In this document: positions 10,605 through 53,349 of the stretch, one piece after another | Numbering within the stretch: the stretch's first letter is position 1 | Layout: the number at the start of each line of letters is the position of its first letter | NCBI GenBank assembly: GCA_027490195.1 | Contig: JAIXYN010000072.1 | Coordinates: 1-64,000, forward strand | DNA: 64,000 bases | Direction: 5' to 3' | Source of the DNA: Verrucomicrobiaceae bacterium | GTDB lineage: Bacteria; Verrucomicrobiota; Verrucomicrobiia; Verrucomicrobiales; Verrucomicrobiaceae | Program-made: the position numbers and the translations under genes | The notes under the pieces: model-generated | The model's database searches: none | What the model was told of the DNA's origin: nothing | What the model saw: only the letters and a program-made list of their open reading frames with translations

Positions 10605-13277
10605 CTATTTGCTGCGGAACTCTTTGCTGCTCACGAGTGCGTGGACGAACTCACGGATGGCGAAGTCCTTTGCCTGAGCGCGGCTCATCATGGCTTCAAT
10701 CAGATCCTCGTCCTGAAAACCGACTGAGCGGCCCAGGCCGTATTCAGTGAGCGCCTCAGCAAAGCCGCGGGCAAAGCGCTCGGGCTTGGCGGCGATCTGG
10801 TCGCGCAGCTCCGGGTAATCGCGGAAGGACGCGCCTTTGTAGAAGGCACCGCTGGGGTCGATGGCGCGGCGATTTTCCGGCACGCCGGGCCGGTCGTCCT
10901 CGGTGCGCCACTTGCCGGCGGCGCTGAAGTTCTCCAGGCCGAAGCCGATGGGGTCGATCTTGCGATGGCACTGCGCACACTGCGGCTCCTCCTGATGCGC
11001 GGCGATGAGTTCGCGCGTGGTCAGTGGTTTGCCTTCGAGCCGGGTGAGCATCGGCACATTCGGAGGCGCGGGCGGTGGCGGTGAGTGCATGAGCTTGCGC
11101 AGCACCCAGGCTCCACGCTCCACGGGGCTGGTGTGCTCGCCGTTGCCACCCATGGCGAGGATGCCAGCCATGCCGAGCAATCCACCACGTGGCGAGCCGG
11201 GCGGGAGCTTCACCTCGCGGAAAGCATCGCCTGCCACGCCGGGGATGTCGTAGTAGTTCGCCAGGATGCCGTTGATCACCACGGTATCGGACTTGAGCAG
11301 GCGCGACAGGCTGCCGCTGTGGTGCAGCAGATGGGCAAAGGTTTGATACACCTCCTGCCGCGCCGCCTCCTTCATCCCCAGATCAAAGTCGCGATGCATC
11401 TTGATGTTGAACTGGAAGAAATCGAGCCGGCTCAAGCCAAGCCATTGACCCACGAATGCCGCCACGAAGTCACTCGCACGCTCATCGGCCAGCAGGCGGT
11501 CGGTTTGCACGTCGAGCGCCTTTGGGTCAACCAATGCGCCCTGTTTGGCGAGCGACAGCAGTTCCCCATCCGGCGGTGCGCTCCATAGAAAATACGACAG
11601 GCGCGAGGCCAGCTCCGTGTCCGTCAAGAGGCGGGGTTTTCGATCCGTGCCCGGTTCAGCGAGATAGAGGAACGACGGCGAAGCCAGCACGACAGCGAGC
11701 GTGTCCTCCAGGCGGGGTTTCATGCCGTTGCGTGACTGCTCATCGTGGATCGTCGCCAGCCGCTCCAGAAAAGTCGGGGCCGGAGGGCGCCCGCGCAATG
11801 CCTTTGCCGCAAAGGCTTGGATGAACTGCAAGGTGGTCCACTCCTTTTTATCCAGGCGCTCCAGCCAGCCTTTCATCTCCTCCCGCGCCGCCATGCAGGA
11901 GGCGGCAACCATCGGCCCCTCCACCTCCAGCCAGTCCACCCACAGCACAGGATCACTCCCCACTCGGTTGCGGGATCTGGCCTCTTCAAAGTAATTGTTA
12001 GGCCTGCCTTCATAGCTGCCGCGTTCGCTCACGCGGAAGTAGCGGTTCCCGCCTGTCTCAACGTGCAGCGGCACCACCAGTTCCTGGGGGGCTGTGACTT
12101 TAGCCGTGACGTGGTGCGTGCTCAGCGGCGGCTCGGCACCTCCACTCGGTGCCACGTCGATGAAGCAGCGCTCGGCGTGAAATGGAATGCTCACCTTGGT
12201 ATCCGGCACCTCATTGGTGCGGCTCGAAAGCAGCACACGCTCTGGCTCGGTGCAGCCGAGGCGTATCCGCAGCCGGTAGTCACCCGGCGGCCAATCTCCA
12301 GGCACGCTGATGGCCACCGATCTCTTGTTGGGGCCGCCGCCGAGATAGACCCCGCTGCGCACCAGCGGCAGCGCGAGATAGTCCGCAATCTCGGGGACGA
12401 ACCTCTCCCACTGCCCTTCGTGATGCACCGCGTCTGTGGCATCGGGAAAACCGAATGCAGCAGGCGAGGGCGCATCCTTCAGCTTCTCCCACTCCAGGTA
12501 AAACTTGTGGAGGTTGTCGTTCGTTCGCTGCCGAATCTCAGCCACCACCCTGGCATTCTCCGGGAGTGCCGCCGCCGCATTCACCGCCTTCGTCCAAAGG
12601 CCGAAACGCTTGCGGATGCTCACCTGACGCTCCATTTCCCGCTCGACGCCCTTGTTGACAGATGTCTCCGGTTCCACCCGCAACGTCTTCACCGTCACCG
12701 GCGTCCTGGCCAGGTGGAACGCTTCACTCAATGCCTTGGCTCCCAGGCTGCGGTAGAGCTGGAACTGATCCGACGACATGAAGAGGGAAGCACCCGCCGT
12801 GTCGAAATTGCCTGCGCCACTGTCAGCAGGCAGGCTGCGCACATCGATCTCCACTCCCAGCAAATCGCGAATCGTGTTGGCATACTCGCGCCGGTTCAGC
12901 CGCCGCATCGTGATCACGCCCTGCGAATCGTTCAGAGTGCGGCGCGCCGCCACCATCACCTGCGAAAGGTCTTCGAGCAGATCAGCCTTCGCGTCCTTGG
13001 CCGGCTGTTTCTCATCTTCCGGCGGCATCTCGCCCGCATTGATCGCATTGAGCACCTTCTGCCACTTCTCGGCCACCTCGATGGTCGTGATCGTGAACGG
13101 CAGATCATCCACGCGAAACTTCCCCTTCTGCTTCTCAGCGCCGTGGCACGAAACGCAGTGCTCTTTGAAAAGCGCGCGGTGCTTTTCCGGCATCACCGCA
13201 CGATCCACCGCACCAACCTTGGCCGTGGCGATGGAAAGGACAGCAGCAATAAAGAAAACGAAACGGAGCAGGCGCAT
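10605..13277 (-). CDS. DUF1587/1592/1588/1585 cytochrome c-like protein
   Basis: 890 residues with signal peptide MRLLRFVFFIAAVLSIATA. An N-terminal planctomycete-cytochrome domain carries C-V-S-C-H (C41, C44, H45). DUF1587 follows (MRRLNRREYANTIRDLLGVE at about 125-145), then one beta-rich module (about 215-460, ending VLWVDWLEVEGP), DUF1595, DUF1592 (LASRLSYFLWSAPPDGELLS), DUF1588, a second heme site C-A-Q-C-H followed by RKIDPIGFGLENFSAAGKW, and DUF1585 at the end (IREFVHALVSSKEFRSK). Family role is presumed redox chemistry on carbohydrates in the cell envelope; substrate unknown. It faces the divergent AraC gene at 13370, a candidate regulator. The paralogue at 48562 has four copies of the middle module. 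Confidence 0.88.
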   Translation of the reverse strand: MRLLRFVFFIAAVLSIATAKVGAVDRAVMPEKHRALFKEHCVSCHGAEKQKGKFRVDDLPFTITTIEVAEKWQKVLNAINAGEMPPEDEKQPAKDAKADLLEDLSQVMVAARRTLNDSQGVITMRRLNRREYANTIRDLLGVEIDVRSLPADSGAGNFDTAGASLFMSSDQFQLYRSLGAKALSEAFHLARTPVTVKTLRVEPETSVNKGVEREMERQVSIRKRFGLWTKAVNAAAALPENARVVAEIRQRTNDNLHKFYLEWEKLKDAPSPAAFGFPDATDAVHHEGQWERFVPEIADYLALPLVRSGVYLGGGPNKRSVAISVPGDWPPGDYRLRIRLGCTEPERVLLSSRTNEVPDTKVSIPFHAERCFIDVAPSGGAEPPLSTHHVTAKVTAPQELVVPLHVETGGNRYFRVSERGSYEGRPNNYFEEARSRNRVGSDPVLWVDWLEVEGPMVAASCMAAREEMKGWLERLDKKEWTTLQFIQAFAAKALRGRPPAPTFLERLATIHDEQSRNGMKPRLEDTLAVVLASPSFLYLAEPGTDRKPRLLTDTELASRLSYFLWSAPPDGELLSLAKQGALVDPKALDVQTDRLLADERASDFVAAFVGQWLGLSRLDFFQFNIKMHRDFDLGMKEAARQEVYQTFAHLLHHSGSLSRLLKSDTVVINGILANYYDIPGVAGDAFREVKLPPGSPRGGLLGMAGILAMGGNGEHTSPVERGAWVLRKLMHSPPPPAPPNVPMLTRLEGKPLTTRELIAAHQEEPQCAQCHRKIDPIGFGLENFSAAGKWRTEDDRPGVPENRRAIDPSGAFYKGASFRDYPELRDQIAAKPERFARGFAEALTEYGLGRSVGFQDEDLIEAMMSRAQAKDFAIREFVHALVSSKEFRSK

Positions 13278-30100: not shown

Positions 30101-30452
30101 GATCGGCGATCTGGGCGTCGCTGAGTTTCGTTTTCGGCGGCATCTGGAGGTCTTTGTCCTCCCACTTCACGGCTTTGAGGAGAAGGGACTTGGATGGATC
30201 TCCGGGGACGAGTGCGGGGCCGGTGTCGCCGCCTTTGAGAGTGGCGTCTTTGGAGTCAAGGAGGAGGTTGCCTTTCTGCTTCTTTTCCGTGCTGTGGCAC
30301 TCGTAGCAGTGCTCGACGAGGATGGGGCGGATTTTGGATTCGAAGTCGGAATCGGTGAAGGCAAAAAGATGAGTAGGCAGAAAAATGGCTGAGCACAAAG
30401 TCAGCACACACTTGGATATATCTTTTTGCCTGTTCATCTTTTTGTCTTTCAT
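27105..30452 (-). CDS. PSD1 / DUF1549-DUF1553 cytochrome protein
   Basis: 1115 residues. Planctomycete cytochrome domain with C-Y-E-C-H (C49, C52, H53) and KGNLLLDSKDATLKGGDTGP; DUF1549 (about 150-390; ADQRTLIRRAYLDLIGIAPT, YGERWGRHWLDVARYADNMG, IGCARCHDHKLEPITTKDYY, a second CxxCH); DUF1553 (about 680-960; SKNNPLTARVIVNRVWGWHF). The C-terminal block (about 975-1080) is beta-rich, followed by LCQAILLSPEFAVME. The first 31 residues, which include the hydrophobic signal segment (CVLTLCSAIFLPTHLFA), are encoded by the terminal repeat of the adjacent GxxExxY cassette. Its ATG is 3 bases after the GxxExxY stop. Presumed envelope redox protein paired with the DUF1501 protein upstream. Confidence 0.87.
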   Translation of the reverse strand: MKDKKMNRQKDISKCVLTLCSAIFLPTHLFAFTDSDFESKIRPILVEHCYECHSTEKKQKGNLLLDSKDATLKGGDTGPALVPGDPSKSLLLKAVKWEDKDLQMPPKTKLSDAQIADLEAWIKAGAPDPRSGPRTLTKIEQHLEDSKKHWSFQPVVDPKPASLDDLIGTKGKPSADQRTLIRRAYLDLIGIAPTYAEVNAFAADNSPQAFEKLIDKLLTDPRYGERWGRHWLDVARYADNMGAIFNGDDTYPNGFTYRDYVIKAFNDDKPYDRFILEQIAADQLDTAKDTRTLAGMGFLGLGRRKDRRLDDDTLDDTIDVMGRGLLGLSIGCARCHDHKLEPITTKDYYGLYSILKSSKEPEIQPALPQEDTPQVREYAEKNKAARSEYIRVVAFEADRSFSALRSRVGDHLLAAHDSKLTNSYKEKKITPDILDPRKLNVGIHNRFIANWDKWVKGHLEFFTPWLELSALPEAEFAAKAPALCEAYGKNADKKLIPSVARSFGKTKPKSLRDIADIYNQLYASEVDALWAENWREHLRVLCIPTADELNLPIAELEKSSIDRALAAQKINPLPDAEGQQLRALFLDDNSPFVLTGKDFLSNRLFANRDVANGLRRNTAKPLTDLQNHPGAPARAMTFVDAEKMHDGKVFIRGNPNTPGPAAPRQFITALHHIAPEPFPKDKSGRLQLAQAIASKNNPLTARVIVNRVWGWHFGDGIVATPSDFGFRGDKPTNQPLLDHLAAWFMENGWSFKKLHKHLMLTAAYQRADFPMRPLDLEPFRDTLLAVTGRLKPDLGGKAEKIADTTRRTVYAFVDRKTLPSIYRSFDFPDPNFSAPKRSRTALTPRALILMNSPLLTDSAKQLAASLTKDMPDDNSRIEDLYRRVFQRQPTDKEMQRAHDYLAAYPKNDLVHPESQDWQYGYGTFDPASKQTAKFASLTAFDGKAFKGTLKTTDGKPSEVKVDAMGGDSGVTSSMCSIRRWISPLNGEINITAELTHTDAKTEGVIARIISSRTGELGEWKAKAQSLCTDLTKVPVKKGDTLDFIVSSQTDKDAGPYQWSPSIVMPTADMPAMPGMNQRWDARVDFANPNAPAKPLTAWEELCQAILLSPEFAVME

Positions 30453-31318
30453 ATCTTAACGAAGAGTTGTGAAGGTGACACCTCGCGTCGTGATATTCGC
30501 CCAGTGAATCGCCTTTAAAGTAGTGTGCTGGAGAAATCGCCGCACATGTGACTCGAAGTTGTTATTCTCATCGGCAAGCGCCGTCAGTTTGAATGCCACA
30601 TCAGGAGCCAACATGCGCATTTTTTGATCATGGAGATGTCCTTTGCTGCCAATGACGGGAACCGCTTGAACCACCTTGTGCTCACCTCCGAGAAAGTGAG
30701 TGAGTGCCTCGTCGTAAAGGCCGATTTCTAGTCCAGCACCCCAATCGTGAACGAGTGAGGAGAGGGTATCTCTGAAAAACTCGGCTCCTGGAATCAAGGA
30801 ATCAAAAGTGGTGTCGGCGATCGTTGGATTCCGGAGATCCTCGAGCCGCTGGAGGCAGTTCACGAACTCGGAATCGACGCGCTCGGGGCGGACGTTGATG
30901 ATCTTGCCATGCGGCAAATCAAAGAGGAGCAGGTAGTTGAAAGCCTGGCTACGGTGCCTGGAAACGATGGCCTCGGCTGCTTTGAACTCGAACAGACCAC
31001 TGCGGTGGACAAGCACGTCGAGGTAATAGGTCTTTGAAAAGGTGCCGAACGCGACGGTGACGGGCACTTCTAGTTCGATGTCTGGCATTCCGTCAGCGAG
31101 TTCGCGCTTATAGACGCGCTCGTCAAAGAAGCGCCCAAACTCGTTATGGATGTCGATGACATGTCCCATCACCTCGTAGGCAAGCGCTCCGAACTCATCT
31201 TGGGAGATGCGCGTGGTTTGGACTTGGCGGGTGATGGGCATAAGCTTGCAGTTGGAAGGAAAAAAGATGGATGGGCAAAAATATAAAATCCATTTTTCTG
31301 CCTGAACCTCTTTTTGCC
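30360..31318. mobile_element. GxxExxY cassette with imperfect terminal inverted repeats
   Basis: The left end (30360-30388) reads GGCAAAAAGA, six bases, GGCAGAAAAATGG. The right end (31290-31318) read in reverse is GGCAAAAAGA, six different bases, GGCAGAAAAATGG: 23 fixed positions match with a variable centre. Each end is also paired with an inner complementary copy (TATATCTTTTTGCC near 30417-30430; GGGCAAAAATATA near 31273-31285), so each end can fold as a hairpin. Only the GxxExxY gene lies inside. The right end touches the DUF1501 stop codon and the left end lies in the PSD1 reading frame. No transposase is present; mobility is inferred from structure only. Confidence 0.6.
30456..31241 (-). 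CDS. GxxExxY-type PD-(D/E)xK-like protein
   Basis: 261 residues from the ATG at 31241 (MPITRQVQTTRISQDEFG). The first half matches the GxxExxY family: AYEVMGHVIDIHNEFGRFFD, then ERVYKREL (the inner Gly is replaced by Phe) and the nuclease-like core YYLDVLVHRSGLFEFKAAEA (Asp ... Glu-x-Lys). The second half contains WGAGLEIGLYDEAL, which looks like a degenerate second copy of the same motif, so this may be a tandem duplication; usual family members are only 120-130 residues. Function of the family is not known; a nuclease role is inferred. It lies inside the inverted-repeat cassette between DUF1501 and PSD1. Confidence 0.7.
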   Translation of the reverse strand: MPITRQVQTTRISQDEFGALAYEVMGHVIDIHNEFGRFFDERVYKRELADGMPDIELEVPVTVAFGTFSKTYYLDVLVHRSGLFEFKAAEAIVSRHRSQAFNYLLLFDLPHGKIINVRPERVDSEFVNCLQRLEDLRNPTIADTTFDSLIPGAEFFRDTLSSLVHDWGAGLEIGLYDEALTHFLGGEHKVVQAVPVIGSKGHLHDQKMRMLAPDVAFKLTALADENNNFESHVRRFLQHTTLKAIHWANITTRGVTFTTLR

Positions 31319-32776
31319 TCAACTCAGGACACCCTTGACGACGTGCCCATACACATCGGTCAGCCTGAAATCCCTGCCCGCATACCGGTACGTCAGCCTC
31401 TCATGATCGAAGCCCAGTAGATGGAGAATGGTCGCGTGCAGGTCATGCACATCGACTTTGTTTTCGACTGCCAGTGCTCCGAAGTCATCGGTAGAACCGT
31501 AAACGGTGCCTGGCTTCGAGCCGCCTCCGGCCATCCACATGGTGAAGCCACCGGCATTGTGATCGCGGCCGATGCCTTTCTTCTTCGACACGTCGTTGTT
31601 GTCACTCGTCGGAGTGCGGCCAAACTCGCCGCCCCAGACGATGAGCGTGTCCTTGAGCATGTCGCGCTGCTTGAGATCGGTGAGCAGCGCATGCAGGGGT
31701 TGGTCAGCGGCAGAGCAGAGTTCGCGATGGCGCTCGTCATTCAAATCATGCGTGTCCCAGTTGTTGTGATAAACCTGCACGAAGCGCACACCACGCTCGA
31801 CGAGACGGCGTGCGAGCATGAGCTGGCGGCCCATCTCGGTGTCGCCGTAGAGATCGCGCATGGTTTTCGGCTCGCGGGTGAGGTCGAAGGCATCGGTGGC
31901 CTCCACCTGCATGCGGAAGGCGGTTTCAAAGGCGCTCACACGACCTTCGAGCAAGGCATCGCCCGGATGCTTCTGCGCGAACTCCTCGTGCATCTGGCGC
32001 ATGAGGTCGAGCTGGCGGCGCTGCTCACGCAGGGAGGTGGTGCCGCTGCGGATGTGTTCGATCATCTTTGTCACCGTCGGGTCTTTGGTTGGAATGCCCG
32101 TGCCGCCGCACCACGCGGGCAGGAAGGCATTGCCCCACTGCTTGTCCCCGCTGCTCGTCGTCCCATTCGGCGATAGCGACACGAACCCCGGCAGGTTTTG
32201 ATTTTCCGTGCCAAGGCCATACACAGCCCACGATCCCACGCTGGGCCGCACGCTGGCAAATTCGCCGGTGTTCATCACGAGCTGCGCTGGCTCATGCACG
32301 CTCGTCTTCGTATGCATGGAGCGAATGACACAAAGCTCGTCGGCATGAGTCGCCAGCTTCGGGAACAGCTCGCTGATCTCCATGCCGCTCTGGCCGTGCT
32401 TCGCGAACTTGAAGGGCGAGCGCTGCAGCTTCCCGCTGAGCCGCCCCATGCCAGCCGCCACGTCGCCCGCAGCCTTTTGGTAATCCTTCATCACCTCATC
32501 GGCCATCTTGCCATGGTACTTCTCCAGCGCGGGCTTGGGATCAAAGGTGTCCACCTGCGACGGACCACCCTCGCAGAAGATGTGAATGACCCGCTTCGCC
32601 TTTGGCGCGAAAGGCGGCTTCTTCGGTGCCAGAGGTGACAGCGGAGCCTCCGCCGCCATGCCAAGTTCCTGCATCAACGACGCCAAACCAAGTCCACCGA
32701 TGCCTAAGGCGCTGCGCGTGAGGAAAGCGCGACGGGTGCTGATGGGATGTGAGTTGGAGCAAAGACGGGGATTCAT
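31319..32776 (-). CDS. DUF1501 exported protein
   Basis: 485 residues of the DUF1501 family, related in fold to alkaline-phosphatase/sulfatase-type proteins but of unknown function. Twin-arginine leader STRRAFLTRSALGIGGLGLA. Family blocks seen: KRVIHIFCEGGPSQVDTFDP KP, MGRLSGKLQRSPFKFAKHGQ, ISELFPKLATHADELCVIRS, NLPGFVSLSPNG, LVERGVRFVQVYHNNWDTHD and IVWGGEFGRTPTSDNNDVS. DUF1501 and PSD1 genes are normally direct neighbours in PVC genomes; here a GxxExxY cassette separates them. The gene faces the LysR gene at 32862, a candidate regulator. Confidence 0.92.
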   Translation of the reverse strand: MNPRLCSNSHPISTRRAFLTRSALGIGGLGLASLMQELGMAAEAPLSPLAPKKPPFAPKAKRVIHIFCEGGPSQVDTFDPKPALEKYHGKMADEVMKDYQKAAGDVAAGMGRLSGKLQRSPFKFAKHGQSGMEISELFPKLATHADELCVIRSMHTKTSVHEPAQLVMNTGEFASVRPSVGSWAVYGLGTENQNLPGFVSLSPNGTTSSGDKQWGNAFLPAWCGGTGIPTKDPTVTKMIEHIRSGTTSLREQRRQLDLMRQMHEEFAQKHPGDALLEGRVSAFETAFRMQVEATDAFDLTREPKTMRDLYGDTEMGRQLMLARRLVERGVRFVQVYHNNWDTHDLNDERHRELCSAADQPLHALLTDLKQRDMLKDTLIVWGGEFGRTPTSDNNDVSKKKGIGRDHNAGGFTMWMAGGGSKPGTVYGSTDDFGALAVENKVDVHDLHATILHLLGFDHERLTYRYAGRDFRLTDVYGHVVKGVLS

Positions 32777-48561: not shown

Positions 48562-51500
48562 TTACTTCCGCTGAAACTGCGGACTGCTGACCAAGGCCAC
48601 GATGAATTCACGGATGGTAAAATTCTTTGCACCGGCCTGCTTGACGATGGTGGTGGCGAGTTCTGCGTCGGTGAAGCCGTAGGGACGGCCGAGGGCGTAT
48701 TCGATGAGTGACTCGGTGAAGCCTTGGGCGAAGTTTTCGCTGCGTGCGGCGATCAGGTCGCGGAGATCGAAGTAGGTCTTGAAGGCGGGGCCGTTGAAGA
48801 GCTGGCCGGCGGGGTCGATGGGCCAGTCTTTTTTCGTTTTGAGGTCGTGATCAATGTCGCGCCATTTGCCGGCGGCGTTGAAGTTTTCGAGGCCGAAGCC
48901 GATGGGGTCGATCTTGCGGTGGCACTGGAGGCACTGCGGCTGCTCCTGATGCACGAGGAGGCGGTCGCGCGGGCTGATGGGCTTGGTGGCGAGGCGTTCG
49001 AGCTGCGGCACATTGGGCGGTGCGGGCGGCGGCGGGTTGTGCAGGAGCTTGCGCAGCACCCAGGCACCGCGCTCCACGGGGCTGGTGCGTTCGCCATTGC
49101 TGCCCATGGCGAGGATGGCGGCCATGCCGAGCAATCCGCCGCGTGGTGAATCATTGGGCAGCGTGACTTTTTGAAACGCATCGCCGCTCACGCCATCGAT
49201 GCCGTAGTAGGTGGCGAGGAGGCCGTTGATGTGGATTTCATCGCTCTTGAGCAGTTTCGAAAGACTGCCGCGCTGGCGCAGGAGGTGAGCGAAGGTCTCA
49301 TACACTTCGCGGCGTGCGGCGGCCTTGGCGCTTTCGTCGAAGTCGCGGAATTGTTTCGTGTCGAACTGGAAGAATTCGAGGCGCTCCATGCCGAGCCACT
49401 GGTGCACAAATCCGCTGACGAATTCATCGGCCTTGGGGCTGGCGATCATGCGATCCACCTCGCGGGTGAGGATGCCTGGCTTGGTGAGGTCTGCGGCGAG
49501 GAGTTGCTCGTCCGGTGGTGCGCTCCAGAGGAAGTAGGAAAGGCGGGAGGCGAACTCTACAGGAGATAGGGATCTCTGCCTTTCATCTTTTACCCCCGAT
49601 CTTTTACCAGCTTCTTCTTTTGGTAAAAGATTTGGGGTGAAAGATGGGGAACCGATTTCCTGAAGATACAAAAACCCTGGAGAGGCCAGAATCACGCTCA
49701 GCGGTTCTTTGAGCGCTGCTTCGTGGGCATCGCCTGCTTTGCGCCGCACTTCGTATAGAGCGGTGAGTTTGTCCACAAAAGCTGCTGAGGGCTTTTTGCC
49801 GCGAAAAGCTCGTTCGGCGAAGTTTTCGAGCACGGTGCGCGCATTCGCGTCTCCGGTGGCAATCACGGGCTTCACCTGCGAATTGGCTTCCGCTTTGTTC
49901 AGCGGGCCTTCGTATTCGATCCAGTCGATCCACAGCACGGGATCGCGTTGTTTGGCGTCGGAGATCAGCCGTGTGCGGCCAGGGAGGCTGATGGCTTCCT
50001 TTTTCAGCGGGCGCTTTTCCATGAGGATGAATTTGCGCGGACCGCCGGGACGGATTTGGAAGGGCAGCTCAATGGTCTCGGGCTTTTCGAGCGTGCCGGT
50101 GATCTGCTTGCTGGTGAGGAAGGTGCGGTCATCTTTGTCGATGGGGCTGGCCTCGACGAAATTGAGGAAGGCGCGCTCCGCAGGCATGCCCGGCAGGCAG
50201 CCGATCTTCACGCGCATGACGTAGTCGCCGGTGGCGAGGTCGGCGGGCATGTCGATGGCGTATTCGCAGGTCTCCTGCACGGTGTTGTCGAGAAAGAGGC
50301 CGGTCTTTGACAAAGGCCGGTCCAGGTATTGCTGGAACCATCGGTTGTTTTGATCCCACACGACCTTGGCGAACTCCGCGTGCGATTTGTCCGTGAAATC
50401 GAACTCCTTCAGCCGCTTCTCATCACCGCCTGCGGCCTTCCACTTGGCGTATTGCTCGTTGAGATACTTGAAGCGCAGATGACCGCGCTCCACTTCCGCA
50501 CGGCGCTTTTCCGGCTCTATGTGTTCGGTCTTGGCAAGAGGGGCTTGTTTCACCAGCGGGCCTTCCCATTCCACCCAGTCGATCCACAGCGCGGACGGCG
50601 GGCCGACACCCGTGGCTTTTTGGGCATTGATGAAGAGATCGTGATCCAGTTTCACATCGCGCTTCTCGCGTAACACAAAAGTGCGCGGGCCGTTCGCGGT
50701 GATGCTCACTGGCACTTCGATGACCTGCGGCGAGTCCGTGGTGCCGCTGATTTGAAACGTCTGCATCAAGTTGAAGTCCTCGCGCTCTTCAGGTTTCATC
50801 CGACTGCCAAGAGCGACGAAGAGCCGCTCCTTCGGTGTGCCTTTCACCGCACCGATGCGAAAGCGCAGCTTGTATTCGCCCGGCCCGGCCTTCTCGACTT
50901 CATGCTTGGTTTTCAACCAGCCGGATGGCTGATCCGGCGGCAGCGTGATGACCTCCTCGGAGTGGACGTTGTAGATCGTCAAAAAAGCGCCGGTTTTAGA
51001 CAGCGGATCATTCAGGTAGCGCTCAAAGGTCGGCCCCTGCTGCTCAAAGCCACGGATGCGAAACTTCGCCTCCTGCTCATCGGGAATGCCCTTCTGCGGC
51101 TGCTTGGTCTCCATGAACTTCTTCGCGGCTTCGTAGCCCCCTTTGAAGTAGCCATTGTAAGTGCCGCCGACCATCGCGTTGGCATGCAGCTCCACCTCGC
51201 GACGCTCTTTGATGGTCTTCGTCAAAGCAAGAGCTGGTGGTGCTGCTGCGGGCGCTTCGAGTTCGACATAGTCCACCCAGATACACGGACGCGGGCCTGT
51301 GCCGGTTTTGTCCCAAGCCTCGCGGAACAAGCCATACTCGGCTTCGCGCGTGTTTGGTCGCTTGTCGCGAATGGCAAAGTTGCGATCACCGCTCGCGTTG
51401 ATCTCAATGGGTATCTCCAGCGTCTGCGGATTCGCGAGCGTGCCGGTGACTTGATGCGAACTGAGCACATTGAAATCCGCCGCGTCAGCCTTGCCCGTGC

Positions 51501-53349
51501 CGATCTCGATGAAGCGCCGCTCCTTCGGCGATTCATCGCTGGCGGCGAGACGCACCCGCAGCGTGTATTTGCCCGCAGGCCAGTTCGTCGGCGCAGTGAT
51601 GCCCGTGTAACGACCTAGCGAATAAAGCATGAGCCAAGTGCCGGTGTCGCGCTGCGGCAGCTTTGGATAGTCGGCGTAGTATTGATGGTGATAGCTGTAT
51701 TCGCTGCGTGCGAACTGCGCGTCGTCCACGTCCTTGAAGCCAAACTGCGTCGGTGGCGGCGCACCCGCGATCTCGGCGAAGTGATTGTAAAACACATGCG
51801 GCGACTGCTTCACCTTCGGGCCGTCGCGCAGCTTCTTCGCGATGTCCACGTTCTCCGGCTTCTTCGCGGCTTCATCAATTGCCGCGCACCATTTCTGAAA
51901 GCGCGAATGCTTTTCTACATAACCTTCGGCATAGATGGGCATGTATTTGTTTGCCCACTGCTCGGGGTCTTTGCGTAGCTTCAGCGGCTTCGACGGTTCC
52001 GCCTTCGCGACCGGAGCCGACGCTGCGCTGACGACCTCAATCCAGTCAATCCACAGCGCGAACTCCGGGCCGATGCCGTTGGCTTTTTGTCCTTCGCTGA
52101 ACAAACGATGCGCGACATCTTCAGACTCATACGTGCCCTTTTCCTGGAAAAAGAAGCCGTAACCTTTTGAGGGGGAAAACTTCAGCGGAATCTCCAGCAC
52201 CTGGGGCTTTTCCAGGGTGCCGGTGATCTGATGACTGCTGGCCACGGCACGCACGCCGGTGTCGTGCTGGGAGCCAAACTCCACGAAGTGCCGTGTGGCA
52301 GGCGTGTTGCTTGTCGCGGCGATGCGCACGCGCACGATATAATCTCCCGCAGGCCAGTCGCCGGGGATGCGGAAGGGCTGGTAGGGATTCACAAACACGT
52401 CCTCAATGGTGAGGAAGGTGCCGGTCTTCGTCGCGGGATTCTCCACGTAGGCTTTCTGATAGGGGACGTAGTGAACCCAGTTGCGGCGGCCTTGTTCATC
52501 GGCGTTGATCTCATCGACAAAGCCGAAGTCCTTGGGGGAAGGTGCACCTTGGATGCGCTGCCACTGCGCATAGAAGTGACGATCATCTCCCTTCTTCTCG
52601 GTGCGGATCTTTGCCACGATGGCTGCATTCTCGGGCTTCTGTGCGGCGGCTTCCACCGCATTGGTCCACTTCACATAGCGATCATGGGCATCCGTGCGGT
52701 CCGCCAGCGACTTGGCGATCTTGGCATTCTTTGCCTCGACCTCCACATGCATGCTTCGTGGCTTGGCTGCCGAAGGTGCGACGAAGCGCGCGAAGTGCTC
52801 GTCCAGCGCCTGACGCCCTAGAGCGAGGTATTGATCGAACTGGTCTGACGACATGAAGAGGGAGGAGCCGACTGTGTCGAACGTTCCTGCGCCGCCATCT
52901 GCGGGCAGTTCGCGCACATTGATGTCCACGCCGAGGAGGTCGCGGAGGGTGTTTTTGTACTCACGCCGGTTCAGGCGGCGCATGGCGATGTTTCCGCCCG
53001 AGTCGCCCAGACGGCCGCGAGCGGCGACGAGCGTGCGGGAGAGGTCGTCGAGGAAAGCGGTCTTTGCGTCGGGTGCAGGCTGCTTTTCATCCTCGGGCGG
53101 CATGTCGCCTGAGTTGATGGAGTTGAGCACCTTCTGCCAGAGATCAGCGCGCTCGACTGAGTCCAAGGTGAAGGCGATGTCATCGAGACGGACCTTGCCT
53201 TTCTGCTTCTCGGCATTGTGGCAGGTGAGGCAGTAGTCTTTGAAGAAAGCACGGTGCTTGGAGTCGAGCTCAGCGTGGGGTGCGTCGGCGGCGTGAGAGG
53301 GCAGGGCGCTCAGCAATGACACTGCGAGTGGGGCGAAGGATCGCTTCAT
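48562..53349 (-). CDS. Giant DUF1592-type cytochrome protein with four tandem modules
   Basis: 1595 residues, roughly 700 longer than its paralogue at 10605. Signal peptide MKRSFAPLAVSLLSALPSHA, heme site C-L-T-C-H (C40, C43, H44), DUF1587 (MRRLNRREYKNTLRDLLGVD, 123-142), then four related beta-rich modules at about 205-440, 465-700, 712-932 and 945-1150, each closing with W(I/V)D(W/Y)(I/V)E. DUF1595/DUF1592 follow (LASPGFLYLQEIG; FASRLSYFLWSAPPDEQLLA), then DUF1588, C-L-Q-C-H with RKIDPIGFGLENFNAAGKW, and DUF1585. Residues about 1233-1258 (between YLQEIG and SLSPVEFASRL) come from an inserted palindrome. The modules look carbohydrate-binding, so the protein may hold long glycans. It lies 18 bases after its DUF1552 partner. 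Confidence 0.88.
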   Translation of the reverse strand: MKRSFAPLAVSLLSALPSHAADAPHAELDSKHRAFFKDYCLTCHNAEKQKGKVRLDDIAFTLDSVERADLWQKVLNSINSGDMPPEDEKQPAPDAKTAFLDDLSRTLVAARGRLGDSGGNIAMRRLNRREYKNTLRDLLGVDINVRELPADGGAGTFDTVGSSLFMSSDQFDQYLALGRQALDEHFARFVAPSAAKPRSMHVEVEAKNAKIAKSLADRTDAHDRYVKWTNAVEAAAQKPENAAIVAKIRTEKKGDDRHFYAQWQRIQGAPSPKDFGFVDEINADEQGRRNWVHYVPYQKAYVENPATKTGTFLTIEDVFVNPYQPFRIPGDWPAGDYIVRVRIAATSNTPATRHFVEFGSQHDTGVRAVASSHQITGTLEKPQVLEIPLKFSPSKGYGFFFQEKGTYESEDVAHRLFSEGQKANGIGPEFALWIDWIEVVSAASAPVAKAEPSKPLKLRKDPEQWANKYMPIYAEGYVEKHSRFQKWCAAIDEAAKKPENVDIAKKLRDGPKVKQSPHVFYNHFAEIAGAPPPTQFGFKDVDDAQFARSEYSYHHQYYADYPKLPQRDTGTWLMLYSLGRYTGITAPTNWPAGKYTLRVRLAASDESPKERRFIEIGTGKADAADFNVLSSHQVTGTLANPQTLEIPIEINASGDRNFAIRDKRPNTREAEYGLFREAWDKTGTGPRPCIWVDYVELEAPAAAPPALALTKTIKERREVELHANAMVGGTYNGYFKGGYEAAKKFMETKQPQKGIPDEQEAKFRIRGFEQQGPTFERYLNDPLSKTGAFLTIYNVHSEEVITLPPDQPSGWLKTKHEVEKAGPGEYKLRFRIGAVKGTPKERLFVALGSRMKPEEREDFNLMQTFQISGTTDSPQVIEVPVSITANGPRTFVLREKRDVKLDHDLFINAQKATGVGPPSALWIDWVEWEGPLVKQAPLAKTEHIEPEKRRAEVERGHLRFKYLNEQYAKWKAAGGDEKRLKEFDFTDKSHAEFAKVVWDQNNRWFQQYLDRPLSKTGLFLDNTVQETCEYAIDMPADLATGDYVMRVKIGCLPGMPAERAFLNFVEASPIDKDDRTFLTSKQITGTLEKPETIELPFQIRPGGPRKFILMEKRPLKKEAISLPGRTRLISDAKQRDPVLWIDWIEYEGPLNKAEANSQVKPVIATGDANARTVLENFAERAFRGKKPSAAFVDKLTALYEVRRKAGDAHEAALKEPLSVILASPGFLYLQEIGSPSFTPNLLPKEEAGKRSGVKDERQRSLSPVEFASRLSYFLWSAPPDEQLLAADLTKPGILTREVDRMIASPKADEFVSGFVHQWLGMERLEFFQFDTKQFRDFDESAKAAARREVYETFAHLLRQRGSLSKLLKSDEIHINGLLATYYGIDGVSGDAFQKVTLPNDSPRGGLLGMAAILAMGSNGERTSPVERGAWVLRKLLHNPPPPAPPNVPQLERLATKPISPRDRLLVHQEQPQCLQCHRKIDPIGFGLENFNAAGKWRDIDHDLKTKKDWPIDPAGQLFNGPAFKTYFDLRDLIAARSENFAQGFTESLIEYALGRPYGFTDAELATTIVKQAGAKNFTIREFIVALVSSPQFQRK
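49584..49646. repeat. Palindromic element inserted in frame in coding sequence
   Basis: Two 25-base arms (49584-49608 and 49622-49646) pair in 22 of 25 positions around a 13-base loop. The arms contain CATCTTT, ACCCC and ATCTTTTACC, a style close to the repeat ends of the GxxExxY cassette (CATCTTTTTGCC). It lies inside the giant cytochrome gene and is translated as about 21-26 extra residues (SPSFTPNLLPKEEAGKRSGV, then KDERQR) that the paralogues lack at that position. Confidence 0.7.

Follow-up and report, generated by a model that had tools for sequence, protein, structure and literature searches.

How does a near-perfect palindrome come to be read, in frame, as part of a cytochrome-type protein? 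The question is raised by a gene at 48562..53349 (minus strand) of the window, as we term the whole 64-kb stretch of DNA that was analysed, which belongs to a genome of 6.98 Mb, probably that of a member of the Verrucomicrobiaceae (G000; other G numbers denote the genomes of relatives and L numbers fetched loci). The gene encodes a PSCyt1/PSCyt3/PSD2-5 protein (DUF1585/1587/1588/1592/1595) of 1595 aa, and Pfam places the insert between PSD5/DUF1595, ending at residue 1231, and PSD4/DUF1592, starting at residue 1261. The preliminary description of this DNA had reported some 21–26 added residues relative to the paralogue at 10605 of the window; the insertion holds, with a measured size of about 20 residues (linker segments of 53 versus 33 aa). 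The element itself spans 63 nt (49584..49646, minus strand) and consists of two ATCTTTTACC-type half-sites, an 11-nt loop and two GGTAAAAGAT-type half-sites. Its inverted repeat (49584-49609 / 49621-49646) has 26-nt arms with 23 of 26 positions paired (88% complementary), the same structure that had been described with 22/25 arm matches and a 13-base loop. On the plus strand, the left arm (49585..49608) reads as the tandem half-sites ATCTTTTACC-CCCG-ATCTTTTACC and the right arm (49622..49645) as GGTAAAAGAT-TTGG-GGTGAAAGAT, each arm comprising two head-to-tail GGTAAAAGAT copies at 14-nt spacing in the layout ATCTTTTACC-NNNN-ATCTTTTACC or its complement, with a single change in one half-site. 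Inspection of the sequence of 49584-49646 revealed no GTAG or CGTC tag at the element ends.

Only two hairpins of score ≥16 occur in the window, nine of score ≥17 in 400 kb of G000 and none in a block-shuffled version thereof, and none of 200 linker shuffles reached the palindrome score of the element (p = 0.005). The nine strong hairpins in this arbitrarily chosen 400 kb include a REP-like TGAGCTTTAGCTCA type, resembling the type-3 linker palindromes described below, and a AATGACGAA type (L210:5147-5221, L218:4956-5037, L226:16430-16529). As had been claimed, the frame stays open throughout the ORF, and the element is read as the peptide SPSFTPNLLPKEEAGKRSGVKDE between DUF1595 and DUF1592. 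One of three frames per strand is open through the whole element, so that an insertion could survive only if it lay in the right frame and its length was divisible by three. The idea of a half-site with five open frames out of six was dropped, as the whole element leaves a single open frame on each strand.

Our answer, which we consider probable, is that the element is a palindromic repeat of a GxxExxY-linked kind, copied in frame into a tolerant loop and neutral there. The dispersed family of palindromic repeats to which it belongs also forms the ends of GxxExxY cassettes, comprising a roughly 260-aa gene with a hairpin at each end, and the GxxExxY nuclease, or host repair after its cuts, may spread these hairpins. 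One unit would have entered the DUF1595-DUF1592 linker, where it would read as a spacer without its own function; it is now eroding, and the same linker has received three other palindrome types in relatives.

The window contains one such cassette. A long-form GxxExxY gene (30456..31241, minus strand; 261 aa; TIGR04256, PF13366 PD-(D/E)XK) is bounded at its 3' end by a hairpin of GGCAAAAAGAT/GGCAGAAAAAT flavour (30358..30451) and at its 5' end by matching inverted repeats (31253..31319; I1 and I2 of L035), and its product is 63% and 60% identical to the nucleases of the GGTAAAAGAT cassettes of G007 and G002, respectively. In these two relatives, GGTAAAAGAT hairpins lie on both sides of a long-form GxxExxY gene directly upstream of the orthologous cytochrome gene (L207, 922-977 and 1807-1882; L228, 1048-1121 and 2098-2169), and L300 and L302 display the same arrangement. 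Cassette hairpin arms are built from two 10–12-nt half-sites placed 14–15 nt apart, and the palindromic layout of two head-to-tail half-sites per arm with a 14–15-nt period is shared by the element and seen in other long-form loci. Comparing the element arms with the cassette ends of 94 loci yielded the highest scores for G007 (27) and G002 (24), at a median of 9.75. The preliminary description had likened the arms to GxxExxY cassette ends, which is correct for the G007 and G002 cassettes; the window's own cassette end scores 12 and is of the related but different flavour GGCAAAAAGAT. A GxxExxY gene with the flavour of the element at both ends was found in these two relatives and not in the window itself. 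Across the 94 loci, in-gene palindromes best match cassette ends of their own flavour, those of G000, G007 and G002 pointing to L207/L228 and those of G021 and G005, which are of another flavour, to L290 (from G021 itself) and L285. The in-gene GGTAAAAGAT units are oriented inside-out (ATC..ACC, loop, GGT..GAT), opposite to most of the cassette-end hairpins viewed, the upstream hairpin of L302 not being opposite.

To quantify the association, 94 of 107 GxxExxY matches were tabulated; the 13 left out were both domains of G014 C420 (L098) and G023 C487, the second domains of five double genes, and five partial, contig-edge or unfetched cases. Inverted-repeat flanks of score ≥19 were present at 64 of the 92 genus loci tested (L104 and L299 were dropped for short flanks), compared to 2.3% of 1090 mismatched pairs, 1/92 with the downstream flank reversed only, and 1/208 ordinary ORFs (120–330 aa, 400 kb of G000). 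Direct-orientation flank alignments reached this score in 35/92 loci, as expected if each end is itself palindromic. These mismatched-pair and ordinary-ORF controls supersede an earlier null that included syntenic orthologues and was therefore too high (99th percentile 178), under which 0/35 loci fell below 0.01. The remaining 28 of 92 loci score below 19 and include a syntenic group of 130–160 aa; syntenic orthologues of 130–163 aa without inverted-repeat flanks are found at L031, L114, L115, L260, L261, L263, L269, L270, L273 and L275, and this group is perhaps domesticated. Many short-form GxxExxY genes (about 125–180 aa; L095-L123, L240-L259) are bounded by the same layout with other half-sites, of the flavours ACAGGATT, CACAGATT, ACGGAATAC, CACGAATG, CGCTGAT and CACTGACTGA.

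A separate search retrieved 37 long-form relatives from bins labelled Verrucomicrobiota, Planctomycetota, Kiritimatiellales and KSB1. Leaving out the partial loci L335 and L336, inverted-repeat flanks were found in 30 of 35, most with a GG-Y-A-rich-GAT half-site layout; at least four of these loci (L301, L317, L322, L325) are also part of the 92-locus set, and the mismatched null is high here (11.8%) because flavours are shared between loci. Moreover, protein similarity tracks flank similarity, with a Mantel rho of 0.58 for 31 long forms (0/1000 permutations) and of 0.23 over 91 loci (0/500 permutations; L100, with a stop inside, also dropped), values that leftover synteny may inflate, only pairs with a flank score ≥60 having been left out.

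The window's GxxExxY protein is likely to be a DNA nuclease, as judged from its predicted structure and conserved residues. It matches TIGR04256 with 51.3 bits (cut-off 35) and PF13366 with 54.8 bits (cut-off 22), and its structure model has a pLDDT of 94.9. The best match among solved structures is SSO0001 (4ic1; Z 9.5, rmsd 2.1 over 91 residues), which we take to be a Cas4 protein, and the next matches, including Cas4 Pcal_0546 and restriction enzymes, reach a Z of 7 or less, the usual background. Residues D75, E85, K87, H96, Q99 and Y103 are invariant in 17 of 17 long forms (E85xK87, Q99xxxY103), presumably constituting the D/ExK/QxxxY motif of RecB/Cas4-type catalytic sites. Such a nuclease may cut the hairpins.

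We analysed the DUF1595-DUF1592 linkers of 110 distinct homologues, counting identical linkers once (L171, L205, L395 and L396 gave none; G047 and G048 are G032 and G021 again). Significant palindromes (p < 0.01, 200 shuffles) were detected in 14 of these, where about one is expected by chance; the homologues were sampled by similarity to the window's protein, and in part from records with a long-form GxxExxY, so that 14/110 is not a genome-wide rate. All 14 fall among the 47 linkers longer than 36 aa and none among the 63 shorter or equal ones. They represent four unrelated palindrome types in frame: GGTAAAAGAT in G000, G002, G007, G038 and a G032 paralogue; GGACAGGGGAAT in G005, G021, G041 and G046; the REP-like type 3, GAAAGTGGCTTGAGCTTTAGC, in G037, G042 and G043; and GACAATCAGACA in paralogues of G038 and G043. 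Two further linkers carry decayed GGTAAAAGAT palindromes (G020, p = 0.015; G013, p = 0.109). The preliminary description had allowed for orthologues sharing the segment without its palindrome; the weaker palindromes of G020 and G013 look instead like decay. The extended linker of G006 contains no significant palindrome (p = 0.26). At a score threshold of ≥13, none was found in 59 extra PSD regions, the G032 paralogue (score 11) having been found by the shuffle test. In G038 (L367, L391) and G043 (L369, L383), different members of one cytochrome family harbour different palindrome types. Four palindrome types at one linker of related genes indicate a tolerant hotspot, apparently a place where selfish palindromic DNA can land and be tolerated.

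A second in-frame site is the amino terminus, where the GGTAAAAGAT unit occurs in G002, G007, G032 (two tandem copies) and L300, reading AGKRLGVK...FYQ, and is absent from G000, G020, G001 and G021. Palindromes at amino termini often reflect mis-annotation, according to the available part of PMC3733652; the hairpin of G002, G007 and L300 contains the last start codon available, a TTG, and hence at least the remainder of the hairpin is translated. The second arm of a TGGAGTGAT-type hairpin contains the beginning of the signal peptide, MALL(H/R)YSI, in G006 and G013, and the hairpin of L302 is located just before the likely ATG, outside the protein.

The junction upstream of the cytochrome gene is occupied differently among relatives. 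In the window, a DUF1552 gene (PF07586; 53368..54642, minus strand) precedes it, and in G000, G001 and G021 the junction is empty, with 18 nt separating the stop codon of DUF1552 from the ATG of the cytochrome gene. At this junction, G002 and G007 have a GxxExxY cassette, G006 and G013 a different hairpin of TGGAGTGAT type, and G032 two GGTAAAAGAT hairpins at a contig end; G008 and G016 have other sequence upstream of the cytochrome gene. GxxExxY cassettes are thus present or absent at an orthologous place. GxxExxY genes also recur next to PSD/DUF1592 cytochrome genes elsewhere, in G000 (C63:100747-101085) as well as in G002, G006, G007, G010 and G018.

Gains and losses of the insert are at odds with the gene tree: it is not monophyletic, G007 (with) grouping with G008 (without) at 100/99 support, and G001 (without) standing beside G000/G020. 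Empty and filled sites are too diverged at their junctions for a target-site duplication to be discerned, and none was identified; nor was any transposition event observed. The arrangement may also stem from one old insertion, inherited vertically, exchanged among orthologues and paralogues through recombination at the linker and lost repeatedly, with no recent mobile insertion, an account that we regard as the main competitor though with less than even chances. In all seven GGTAAAAGAT-type copies, that of the 59%-identical G032 paralogue included, the 11-nt loop, the boundaries and the frame are nearly the same, and the exact tight form with the 11-nt loop was found only in this cytochrome gene, in 4 of the 24 genus genomes; for the GGTAAAAGAT type, recombination between gene copies is therefore a serious rival. 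Against a single old event, the three other types in this linker must each have arrived independently, and the GGTAAAAGAT unit has a second, amino-terminal position in some of these genes and not in others.

Alternatively, RAYT (Y1) transposases could act in trans on the hairpins, which would then be REP-type repeats with GxxExxY as a passenger; this appears unlikely. Such transposases are at hand, as PF01797 matched 16 times in G000 and also in all 24 congeners; on C24, one element is found 2.8 kb away from a PF01797 gene, and the type-3 linker palindromes look REP-like. However, the element lacks the tags at its ends, none of the eight G000 PF01797 loci viewed (of 16) is flanked by the unit, and the hairpins near them differ (GC-rich at L128, L131, L134 and L136; GACAGGATT type at L130) or are missing (L129, L132, L133), whereas hairpin flavour follows the GxxExxY protein. 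At L134:356-2077, a CTGGGAGCGCCGGTTTTTAACCGGCTCTGG hairpin array surrounds a Y1_Tnp (PF01797) gene.

The preliminary description anticipated further copies in the genome, and these exist. Allowing at most one mismatch, the pattern GGTAAAARATNNNNGGTAAAARAT gave 36 arm matches at 17 places in G000, several of them arrays with a 150–240 bp period, compared to a single match of the reversed pattern. Matches occur in 12 of the 24 genus genomes (G000 36, G007 26, G022 13, G020 9, G002 7, and 1–5 in seven others), with the reversed-pattern control totalling five across all 24, and looser searches of G000 returned further weak copies outside the 17 places, on C16, C44, C60, C63 and C74. Patterns and ungapped hairpin scoring were used rather than a covariance model, as loops vary from 11 to about 85 nt. 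Scanning the 22 other ORFs overlapping G000 copies with Pfam, we found no second in-frame copy in a recognisable gene: 20 had no Pfam match, and in two the domains begin only past the copies (an FAD-dependent oxidoreductase with DAO_C, and a class II tRNA synthetase D/K/N). These in-gene counts derive from pattern searches and fetched stretches, with a few nested ORFs outside the scan, and an ORF without a Pfam match may still be a gene.

This bears on the suggested resemblance to the Rickettsia family of protein-coding palindromic elements (RPE), which the data do not bear out. As far as the accessible portion of PMC2229807 shows, RPEs measure 105–146 bp, were reported in 19 reading frames and also have intergenic copies. 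The likeness consists in an in-frame palindromic insert being tolerated in a conserved protein, with intergenic copies and, in relatives, a second in-frame site at the amino terminus. The element differs in its 63 nt and in being in frame at 1 of 17 G000 places instead of in many genes, and we deem its membership of a Rickettsia-type family very improbable.

The hairpin in the gene is eroding. Of the 26 pairs, 15 vary among the seven inserts of GGTAAAAGAT type and 12 are broken in at least one copy, with one double-sided change, and the G013 insert retains only 16 of 26 Watson–Crick pairs. Of 10 species pairs, 7 show a higher dN/dS in the 28-codon insert than in the 200 codons that follow (1.0 versus 0.08 for G002/G038; 0.27 versus 0.11 for G000/G002) and three an equal or lower one (G000/G020, 0.11 versus 0.11; G000/G007; G020/G007). 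The insert has a pLDDT of about 35 within a whole-cytochrome model that is itself weak (66.8). Together, these values fit a tolerated spacer, presumably drifting neutrally. Rfam gave no match at gathering score in six sources holding such hairpins, and sub-threshold matches to micro-RNA and small-RNA hairpin models were taken as chance hits of any long perfect hairpin. That the hairpin is instead retained for a function, as mRNA structure (processing, translational pausing) or as a needed protein segment, is the least credible of the alternatives, since the strong folding predicted for the linker region of G000 (−39.8 kcal/mol) and the presence of the hairpin in seven gene copies stand against the broken pairs, the poor pairing in G013, the absence of an Rfam match and the existence of orthologues without the insert.

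Our favoured reading, a neutral copy of a GxxExxY-linked repeat, can be set beside several known systems. MITEs and REPINs are non-autonomous copies sharing their ends with a gene-bearing element. The ends of the element likewise recur in a gene-bearing unit, the GxxExxY cassette, which may be autonomous; the difference is that no transposase of a known class and no target-site duplication was found. In-frame palindromes have precedent closer to the present organism: the part of PMC3733652 available describes GTAG/CGTC REPs, some wholly inside ORFs, also in the verrucomicrobium O. terrae, so that, if such elements are taken broadly, the preliminary description, which knew of none in PVC bacteria, overlooked cases already in print. 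The same source reports different REPs at about the same site of recB in two Xanthomonas species, and its authors suggest that REPs are tolerated in flexible linkers or loops. In contrast to these REPs, the element has no tag, its arms are tandem half-sites, four types occur at one linker, and the link is to a PD-(D/E)XK GxxExxY gene rather than to a tyrosine transposase. Lacking the tag and following GxxExxY genes, it represents a variant apart from the in-frame palindromes of both Rickettsia and O. terrae. The 23S rRNA intervening sequence with its S23 protein is likewise described, in the accessible text of PMC4990558, as a small selfish element with one small ORF; unlike our case, it resides in rRNA and its protein is named differently.

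GxxExxY itself is only named in passing in the available parts of PMC8934634 and PMC12085832, which make no link there to repeats or mobility. Our literature search, carried out without most subscription papers and all preprints, found no GxxExxY-repeat link, no multi-type hotspot and no report of this palindrome. We tentatively propose, at somewhat less than even confidence, that GxxExxY genes and tandem half-site hairpins may form a class of mobile element, as yet undescribed, that occurs in Verrucomicrobiota, Planctomycetota and their neighbours. A Cas4-like PD-(D/E)XK nuclease would stand in for the transposase, each flavour of nuclease would be matched to its own hairpin ends, and solo hairpins would seed coding sequence, including linkers and signal peptides. 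GxxExxY, a widespread nuclease family with no role described in the papers found, would thereby gain a substrate hypothesis, namely its own tandem half-site hairpins. The homologous cytochrome genes, whose linker bears palindromes of four unrelated types and whose amino terminus bears two, in various stages of decay, offer a natural experiment on how selfish palindromes turn into protein.
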